Origin: an uncultured Clostridium sp.
GTDB lineage: Bacteria > Bacillota > Clostridia > TANB77 > CAG-508
Direction: 5' to 3'
Assembly: GCA_948438085.1 (NCBI GenBank)
Contig: CAOJKP010000005.1
Span: 1 to 64,000 of the forward strand
DNA length: 64,000 nucleotides
Shown in pieces: positions 7,190 through 24,393 of the stretch; the stretch's first letter is position 1, and each line of letters opens with the position of its first letter. A model generated the notes under the pieces. The model was not told where the DNA came from. It worked only from the letters and a program-made list of their open reading frames with translations, and made no database searches. A program made the translations under genes and the position numbers.

Positions 7190-7379
7190 AAAAAACCCCG
7201 CCTTAGACGTCATTGCCAAGAGATTTTACGGACCTGTATATATACAGGTGGGTGCCTACCTAAATACTTATGGGTTTCTTACATAAATGCAAGCATACAC
7301 GCCATATTCAGAGTTTAAGCTCCCTTTCCGAAAGTTTGAGGTTCTAAAATATCTTGTTTGTCGCGTACTACGCAGGGAA
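7190..7379 (-). ncRNA. ssrS: 6S RNA (RNA polymerase-binding regulatory RNA)
   Basis: This GC-richer island of about 190 nt has no coding potential. On the minus strand the 5' end CCCTGCG pairs with the 3' GGCGGGG, which runs into TTTTTT. Internal blocks GAACCTCAAAC, GGGAGCTTAAACTC, GGCGTG.ATGC, GTAAGAAACCC, GTAGGCACCCACCTGTA.ATACAGGTCCGTAA and CTCTTGGCAATGACG follow the order I recall for Firmicutes 6S RNAs. The long hairpin mimics an open promoter and sequesters sigma-A RNA polymerase in stationary phase. Ends are approximate and the family call rests on remembered consensus, not a covariance search. Confidence 0.8.
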
Positions 7380-7556
7380 ATTTAATATCTATTTAATTAC
7401 AAGTTTATAATAACATATAAGCTTAATTTATTTCAAGTTTGTTTTTTTCGTTTTAAGCTTATTTTTTTATATTTAGATTTATTTATCTCACTTTTTTTAA
7501 GTTTTTATAATATTATTATATAAATTTATTACTTGTATTATTCATAAATTTATGTA

Positions 7557-10596: not shown

Positions 10597-10755
10597 AGCG
10601 CGAAGGAAGAAATGTTTTAAAATATTTTAGAACGATGAGGAGCCATGCGTGGGGGACCAATAGAAACTGTCAAAATGTGTTAACATTTTGTACTGTTTCA
10701 TTGGGGAATGGCGACTGTTCAAAATATTTTAAAACATTTACTTCCTGGAATCGGT
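10597..10755. repeat. Structured repeat element, copy 1 (unrecognised)
   Basis: A GC-richer ~159-nt island between two minus-strand genes. Left GGAAG...AAATGTTTTAAAATATTTT pairs with right AAAATATTTTAAAACATTT...CTTCC, a stem of about 28 bp. Inside are GCCAT/ATGGC, GAAAC/GTTTC and a terminal CAAAATGT-GTTA-ACATTTTG hairpin, with GCGTGGGGGACC and TGGGGA unpaired in between. It has no reading frame of note. Copy 2 (24235-24393) is inverted and about 94% identical without indels. It could be a structured RNA gene or a mobile hairpin; the transcribed strand is undetermined. Confidence 0.8.
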
Positions 10756-10767
10756 ATTTATTGTGAC

Positions 10768-10812
10768 AATTGTAATAAGATAACCTTATTATAAGGTTAT
10801 CTTATTACAATT
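10768..10812 (-). terminator. Terminator of the histidine kinase gene
   Basis: Arms 10768-10789 and 10791-10812 are a perfect 22-nt palindrome with minimal loop. It overlaps the kinase stop codon, so it marks the 3' end of the two-component operon. Confidence 0.7.
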
Positions 10813-12301
10813 TATCTAATTCTAAATCGAAGTAAAATTCAACTCCATTTTCCTTATTTATTACTCCATAATCTAATTCATAGTTATTCATTATTGCTTT
10901 TACTAATGATAATCCTATTCCTGTTCCTCCATCTTGTCTATTTCTAGACTCATCTACTTTATAAAATCTATTCCATATTCTTTGTAAATTTTCTTCTTTT
11001 ATGTTGTCTCCTGTGTTAAACACTGATATTCTTATTTTATTTTTTTCTATATTTATATTAGTAGATATAATTATTTCTTTAACATTATCTCTCTGTTTTA
11101 CATGCTTTATTGCATTTGTTAAGTAATTTGTTAATACTTGCTCTATATAAAATTCATCTGCATATACATAAACTGAATCTGTACACATATTTTGAATTTT
11201 TATATTATTTTGTTCTATTATTAGTATATTCTTTCTTATTACTTCTCTTATCAATTCACATATACAAAATGGTTTATTGTCAAATTCCCTCTTTCCATAT
11301 TCTAACTTCATAAGTTCTAATAGTTGTTTAACTAATTTGTCCATTTTATTTGCTTCATCTAATATTACTTCTGAATAAAATCTTCTATTTTCCTCATCTG
11401 TATTTACATTTTCAATTAATCCTTCTGCATACCCTTGAATTAGAGCTATTGGTGTTTTTAGTTCATGTGATACATCAGATATAAATTGTTTTCTCATTTC
11501 ATCTATTTTAGATTTTTCTTCTATATCTTTTTCAAGTTCAATATTGGTTGACCTTAATTGCTTTATTGTTCTTTCTAATTTGTCAGACATTGTATTTATA
11601 CTTTTTCCTAAATCATTAATTTCATCCTCTGTATCTGTTATTCTATATTTATGACTAAAATCTAAATTCGACATTTTTTTTGCTATGTTATTTAATTCTA
11701 CTATTGGATGAGTAAATTTTCTTGATATAAATGAAACTACTACTCCTCCTATTAATATTGTAATTCCTCCTATTAAGTATAAAAACTTATTAGATATTTT
11801 TACGCTTTCATGAATTGAAGCAATAGGCATTCTTATATAAACCATATATCCATTGTCCATTTGTGCTCTAAACATTATAAATGTTAGTCCACTTTTTGTA
11901 TCATCAATTTTTGTTATATTAATTTTACTTTTTTCATTTTCCTTTTCATTTTCTTTTCTAATCAAGCCATATGGATACTCTTTTATAGTATTTGCAAAAA
12001 AGTCACTATCAGTTGAATATACAATAATGTTTTCATCTGTTTTTATCACAATATCAAAATTATTGTTTACAGCATCTCTTTGTAATTCTAATTCTAAATC
12101 AATATCTTTATTATTAATATAATAGTCATTAATTTTATGATAAACTTCAAAAATGGAACGTTCTTTATTGTAGAAATAGAATGTTTCTAATACAAAGTTA
12201 TTTGTTATTATAAGAAAAGATATTATTATTAATACTACTATACATAATGTTAAAAATAGTTTTATTCTTACTGATTTCAAATAAACATTTAATTTCTTCA
12301 T
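10805..12301 (-). CDS. Sensor histidine kinase
   Basis: 498 residues. Two membrane helices (12-34 and 173-193) flank an extracytoplasmic sensor. They are followed by HAMP (about 190-245), a coiled coil, HisKA with phospho-acceptor His279 in ISDVSHELKTPI, and HATPase_c (about 380-498) with the N-box YLTNAIKHV and G-box GGTGIGLSLVKAI. It autophosphorylates in response to an unknown envelope signal and passes phosphate to the adjacent response regulator. The start overlaps the regulator stop (TAATG), implying translational coupling. It resembles the PhoR/YycG-like class, but without the PAS domain that class often has. Confidence 0.95.
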   Translation of the reverse strand: MKKLNVYLKSVRIKLFLTLCIVVLIIISFLIITNNFVLETFYFYNKERSIFEVYHKINDYYINNKDIDLELELQRDAVNNNFDIVIKTDENIIVYSTDSDFFANTIKEYPYGLIRKENEKENEKSKINITKIDDTKSGLTFIMFRAQMDNGYMVYIRMPIASIHESVKISNKFLYLIGGITILIGGVVVSFISRKFTHPIVELNNIAKKMSNLDFSHKYRITDTEDEINDLGKSINTMSDKLERTIKQLRSTNIELEKDIEEKSKIDEMRKQFISDVSHELKTPIALIQGYAEGLIENVNTDEENRRFYSEVILDEANKMDKLVKQLLELMKLEYGKREFDNKPFCICELIREVIRKNILIIEQNNIKIQNMCTDSVYVYADEFYIEQVLTNYLTNAIKHVKQRDNVKEIIISTNINIEKNKIRISVFNTGDNIKEENLQRIWNRFYKVDESRNRQDGGTGIGLSLVKAIMNNYELDYGVINKENGVEFYFDLELDKL

Positions 12302-24198: not shown

Positions 24199-24234
24199 TT
24201 CTTCTCCTTTTGTTAATATTTAAGATATAAATTA

Positions 24235-24393
24235 CCGCTCCCAGGAAGCAAATGTATAAAAATATTTTGAACAGTCGCCATTCCCCAATGAAACAGTACA
24301 AAATGTTAACACATTTTGACAGTTTCTATCGGTCCCCCACGCATGGCTCCTAATCGTTCTACAATATTTTTATACATTTCTTCCTTCGCGCTA
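24235..24393. repeat. Structured repeat element, copy 2 (inverted)
   Basis: The reverse complement of copy 1 (10597-10755), about 10 differences over 159 nt and no indels. The outer stem stays paired although its sequence differs (GTATA/TATAC here, GTTTT/AAAAC in copy 1). The internal GCCAT/ATGGC, GAAAC/GTTTC and CAAAATGT/ACATTTTG stems are identical. It sits between nrnA and truB inside an otherwise continuous operon. No clear target duplication is visible in the AT-rich flanks. Confidence 0.8.

Follow-up and report, generated by a model that had tools for sequence, protein, structure and literature searches.

The window (the whole stretch of 64,000 nucleotides analysed here) contains two copies of a repeated element in opposite orientations. 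Copy 1 is flanked by two minus-strand genes, one for a TPR protein and one for a histidine kinase. Copy 2 is located between the DHH phosphoesterase and truB genes, where it is an insertion relative to congeners. Their gap-free alignment spans 159 nt and shows 10 substitutions. The inverted repeat of about 94% identity reported in the first-pass annotation was found as described, except that the second copy occupies 24234-24392, off by one from the 24235-24393 given there. Four of the ten substitutions make up two compensatory pairs, 10616/10733 and 10618/10731, in the outer stem. The G+C content is 37% in the element, 45% in its core, and 27% in the whole window, in agreement with the earlier description of an island unlike its AT-rich surroundings. 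In comparison with dinucleotide shuffles, folding was far better on both strands, with z = -8.3 on the plus strand and z = -9.7 on the minus strand, and the inner stems named earlier are present in the fold. The features of the element are:

10597..10755, plus strand: copy 1 of the element
24234..24392, minus strand: copy 2 of the element
10597..10606, plus strand: AGCG-subfamily motif AGCGCGAAGG at the 5' end of copy 1; 26 sites in its own genome, and found in other genera too
10744..10754, plus strand: 3' terminal motif CCTGGAATCGG (consensus CCTGGGAGCGG), copy 1; 20 sites in its own genome, and found in other genera too
10605..10628, plus strand: outer stem P1, left arm; sequence differs among copies, complementarity retained
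10721..10745, plus strand: outer stem P1, right arm; sequence differs among copies, complementarity retained
10634..10641, plus strand: GATGAGGA, whose terminal GA is opposite the GA 3' of P2 (10713-10714)
10642..10646, plus strand: 5' strand of P2, GCCAT, paired with ATGGC at 10708-10712; two-sided changes in five of five pairs
10647..10656, plus strand: 5' side of the internal loop, GCGTGGGGGA; GTGGG-GA hardly varies among 11 genera
10657..10661, plus strand: 5' strand of P3, CCAAT, paired with ATTGG at 10700-10704
10664..10698, plus strand: terminal hairpin P4-P5, with AAAC/GTTT and CAAAATGT/ACATTTTG
10705..10707, plus strand: 3' side of the internal loop, GGA

Two other structures were observed in the window. 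A 6S RNA (Rfam RF00013, 77.3 bits) is encoded at 7191-7381 on the minus strand. A nearly perfect long palindrome (TTGTAATAAGATAACCTTATtATAAGGTTATCTTATTACAA) at 10764-10814 directly adjoins copy 1, where the histidine kinase gene has its 3' end; this is perhaps a bidirectional terminator.

The element is one long imperfect hairpin formed around a conserved structured core. The asymmetric internal loop of the core, GUGGG-GACC / GUGGGA, is nearly invariant: the mean column identity was 0.96 for the 5' loop, 0.70 for the stems, and 0.65 for the outer stem. In 49 of the 60 sequences, P2 is flanked on both sides by a GA dinucleotide, and the facing GA dinucleotides could possibly form tandem G-A pairs. 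The third pair of P3 is G-U in 40 of the 60 relatives. The outer ends vary across genera: the AGCG motif, GTTAMAGTTCAG, TAAAATAATAAATTTA, and AAGAGGTATAAG were observed, and none was found in genomes G015 and G169. The terminal motifs of the AGCG subfamily, AGCGCGAAGG and CCTGGGAGCGG, are shared by several other genera. It should be mentioned that another conserved stretch, also apparently structured (TTCTTAAGAAAC..GTGTCTTAAGCGGGATGGGATTAAAAGGTAAGGGCAGAGCCCTTGGCCTTTT), comes after each copy in genome G328 (L219, L229-L232) at a distance of no more than about 90 bases, as though the two were modules travelling together.

The first-pass annotation regarded the repeat as present twice, which is correct inside the window; its genome (G000; assembly 83% complete) has about 20 full or partial copies by nucleotide search and 23 by the covariance model. 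The genome-wide search for copies thus gave far more than two, paired relatives exist, and a recent two-copy duplication was ruled out by the multicopy nucleotide searches. The congener G007 (assembly 88% complete) gave 28 covariance-model matches, nine of which are short and have no terminal hairpin, and G015 gave 26; the counts for both genomes include deletion derivatives. Most congeners have no copy detected by the covariance model, in other words, the distribution is patchy. With the refined covariance model, matches were obtained in 27 of the 385 genomes of the order, from 11 genera: 26 belong to the same family, and the remaining one is a weak match outside it. None of 390 other genomes in a class-wide sample was matched by the covariance model. 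In these two large searches, at most nine copies were counted for any one genome because of a cap. A pattern scan of one genome per species (84,980 species) gave matches only in uncultured gut Clostridia of the same genus. The element is restricted to one family-level lineage of gut Clostridia, save the one weak outside match. The phage, plasmid, and viral collections searched gave no match, and an origin from these sources was rejected. In Rfam, no covariance score reached the gathering threshold, divergent members included, and the best sub-threshold matches were of low complexity. Known RNA families (6S, tmRNA, SRP, HEARO, riboswitches, and others) were ruled out on this basis, and the earlier failure to recognise a family was borne out. 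Of 55 copies, 54 are outside ORFs.

Copies in G007 are bounded by a 17-bp terminal inverted repeat (TIR), GTTA[AC]AGTTCAG[AT]CTAT. Most of the core-bearing elements anchored by this TIR are 206 bp long, and the short ones are about 155 bp long. The 8-mers flanking these copies match at 75%, and in 17 of the 28 copies the match is 7/8 or better. Flanks of other lengths match at approximately 40%, and none of 20000 permutations reached the observed value. This means that the 8-bp match is a target-site duplication, and the TIRs and the 8-bp target duplications together demonstrate DNA transposition of the G007 element. Matches to the TIR extend beyond the core-bearing copies to core-less hairpins, deletions, and fragments. 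Solo hairpins having the element's ends and no core (L175, L059, L060, L277, and L280) were observed as deletion derivatives of the palindrome. When an autonomous element with the same ends was sought in G000 (83% complete) and G007 (88%), the end matches inspected were hairpins and fragments only. The safe label "MITE-like" was chosen because a matching autonomous element was not found in these incomplete genomes.

Neither a target duplication nor a further terminal inverted repeat was detected in the AGCG subfamily, to which the window copies belong. The left flank in this subfamily is usually AATT, and in G000 the inverted ends are the outer stem itself, most copies having no further TIR. 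Target duplications at fixed offsets in the G015, G019, G169, G228/G226, G328, and g9 groups were not above permuted controls, except for weak values in small groups. Insertion is seen at the site of copy 2: the gap between the DHH and truB genes is 239 bp including the element in G000, and 14-27 bp in G020, G021, G016, and G007. In congeners, this gap is either short or occupied by other inserts. The slot carries different repeats in each species (L185, L186, L188, L191-L194, and L201), including GTAG-type palindromes, and a common insert of about 200 bp with TTGACA..TATAAT is present in L192 and L194. The first-pass annotation had argued from the near identity of the copies for function or very recent spread, and each half of this statement now has some evidence: spread from the many copies, the target-site duplications in a congener, and the insertion relative to orthologous sites, and function from the unpaired loops conserved across 11 genera. 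Neither outcome named there as a refutation was obtained, as Rfam gave no family and the copies are numerous and have paired relatives.

Several variants of the repeat and its surroundings were also examined. Short copies of 63 nt were considered as a separately mobile form, and this was rejected: they are scattered in the tree and look decayed. They are more likely independent deletions between GGGGA repeats. A paralogous empty site was sought by way of a composite flank repeat in G000, and this was uninformative, since the sole core-less copy carries another insert. In this composite repeat (L252 and other copies), the repeated upstream region precedes an ORF with a run of GA dinucleotides at its 5' end, and the ORFs behind it are possibly a phase-variable gene family. 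In other genera, longer palindromes that look host-derived enclose some of the copies, and one such palindrome (L233) resembles a terminator. This may be caused by a target preference for hairpins, or by snap-back copying that extends the palindrome.

The covariation score of the named pairs in the 60 sequences was 0.622, versus 0.229 +/- 0.010 when the partners were shuffled and no more than 0.10 when they were slid. This score should not be taken at face value, because template switching in hairpins can homogenise the arms: the polymerase can copy one arm from the other, and the spacer is inverted (PMC8604942). Signs of this process are seen in the element. The left P4 arm in L004 has been rewritten as the exact complement of the right one, and the core in G007 occurs in both orientations relative to two different (asymmetric) outer arms. 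Furthermore, P4 and P5 show many double changes with almost no G-U or A-C intermediates, which is the pattern expected from template switching. In the core, 53 G-U and 8 A-C cells were counted; 40 of the former come from one conserved pair, without which the counts are only 13 versus 8. In the outer stem, G-U and A-C are balanced (9 versus 11), and selection at the RNA level is accordingly unsupported there. These observations support the inference that complementarity of the arms is explained in part by hairpin template switching. Since covariation in palindromic repeats can come from template switching, pair counts alone are insufficient proof of a functional RNA. The argument for selection on the core is a different one: asymmetric unpaired loops and one G-U wobble persist despite a process tending to remove them. 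Judging from these sequence patterns, the core is probably selected as plus-strand RNA.

Short mobile hairpins are usually regarded as debris, and their pairing as a mere by-product of inverted ends. In the present family, conservation across 11 genera is highest in the unpaired asymmetric loops, despite a mutational process tending to erase asymmetry, and whether a MITE can depend on an internal folded nucleic acid thus becomes a testable question. The element is short, non-coding, multicopy, and mostly intergenic, as MITEs are; a terminal inverted repeat (17 bp) and a target-site duplication (8 bp) are present in G007, the duplication being undetected in the AGCG subfamily and the other groups tested. 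It is therefore considered, with good confidence, to be a family of non-autonomous MITE-like DNA transposons in one family of gut Clostridia, consisting of a hairpin around a conserved structured core. In the mechanism proposed, a DDE-type transposase supplied in trans would recognise the ends and move the element. A template switch of the polymerase inside the hairpin would rewrite one arm from the other, which would account in part for the arms staying complementary and would also invert the core with respect to the outer arms. Selection probably lets the asymmetric internal loop and the conserved G-U wobble outlast this homogenisation. The likeliest target of such selection seems to be a fold of the plus-strand RNA (or single strand) bound by a protein, with the machinery of transposition and an RNA-binding factor of the host as candidates.

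The conservation of the core over 11 genera while the outer ends differ, the invariant loop, and the one conserved G-U pair would also be in line with a functional RNA, either a new class of noncoding RNA or a ribozyme, being the cargo of several unrelated mobile palindromes: the RNA persists, and not the ends. If this were true, the RNA would act as a guide of transposition, a decoy for host factors, or a catalyst. However, the element is absent from many genomes of the genus, the orientation to genes is random, and a consistent promoter or terminator was not found: no promoter above chance was detected in the element copies, and the sole terminator-like site is the end of copy 2. The lack of a promoter above chance and the mixed orientation give no support to an independent RNA gene, and the cargo reading is considered a rather unlikely one. 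The same holds for the form of this reading in which a new structured-RNA class with the conserved GUGGGGACC/GUGGGA internal loop is carried by several unrelated palindromic transposons and kept for the RNA's own action. As for the stand-alone structured RNA implied by the first-pass annotation, the structure is upheld; since what carries it is a mobile hairpin of DNA whose orientation to genes shows no bias, a stand-alone RNA cannot be taken as established. A glmS ribozyme was observed 3' of an element copy in genome G164 (L212:1780-1926). A cis-acting element of mRNA (riboswitch, attenuator, terminator, or stabiliser) would agree with the intergenic position and stable fold, and effects on neighbouring mRNAs have been described for MITEs such as ERIC and NEMIS (PMC2229807). 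The 55 copies, however, show no consistent orientation to genes (between co-directional genes, 23 antisense versus 12 sense; 12 divergent and 6 convergent), and the neighbouring genes are unrelated. Because of this absence of orientation bias, a cis-regulatory RNA role is unlikely, and a cis-acting mRNA element is very improbable as the explanation of the family.

Other routes of movement were weighed against a DNA transposon of the MITE type. The hairpin with conserved mismatches, the AGCG subfamily with its conserved AATT at the left and no target duplication, and the GTAG-type palindromes common in the genus might suggest that an IS200/IS605-type (Y1) or REP-associated (RAYT) transposase moves the element as structured single-stranded DNA. 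On the other hand, Y1_Tnp was not found in G000 (83% complete) or G007 (88%), its presence in relatives showed no correlation with copy number of the element, and the G007 copies have TIRs and 8-bp duplications. Y1 transposons are not known to make such TIRs and duplications. This origin is thus improbable, and assignment as an IS200/IS605-derived element was rejected on the same grounds, the case against it being weaker for the AGCG subfamily taken alone, where no duplication was detected. Still less probable is RNA-mediated movement in the manner of a SINE, with a resident reverse transcriptase making the copies; this can hardly be maintained. The core is RNA-like and reverse transcriptases occur in many relatives, but none was found in G000 (83% complete) or G009, no correlation with copy number was observed, and a DNA transposase is indicated by the G007 copies with their precise TIRs and 8-bp duplications.

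The MITE-like element resembles several known repeat families. In the Bacillus cereus group, bcr1 and the other MITE-like bcr repeats (Okstad 2004; Kristoffersen 2011; described in PMC3446304) are likewise small, non-coding, intergenic, and group-restricted with mobile-element traits, and are often transcribed within UTRs. By description, the present element is set apart from bcr1 by its lineage and by combining, across 11 genera, a nearly invariant internal loop with several different outer ends. Correia/NEMIS, ERIC, and RUP are also shorter than 200 bp and AT-rich, with TIRs and target duplications, and their transcripts fold as long stem-loops (PMC2229807). Their termini mostly carry a TA dinucleotide, whereas the duplication of the present element is 8 bp long in G007, and its conserved loop is enclosed by core helices that covary strongly. 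QMITE2 of Coxiella burnetii is a MITE with direct repeats of 7-9 bp, TIRs of 23-29 bp, and a folding core of 113-145 bp; the organism is unrelated, and cross-genus conservation of the core does not appear in the available part of its description (PMC10969869). GTAG/CGTC REP palindromes, which go with RAYTs, are intergenic hairpin repeats present in these genomes as well. A REP measures 20-40 bp and bears a GTAG or CGTC tag (PMC3733652), whereas the element is approximately 160 bp with no such tag at its ends and no matching transposase (Y1_Tnp) in G000, and assignment to the REPs was rejected. The distinguishing combination is the nearly invariant internal loop across 11 genera together with several different outer ends. 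As the nearest families differ in this combination, the element is set apart as a new form of MITE-like repeat, with the reading of its core as cargo RNA kept alongside.
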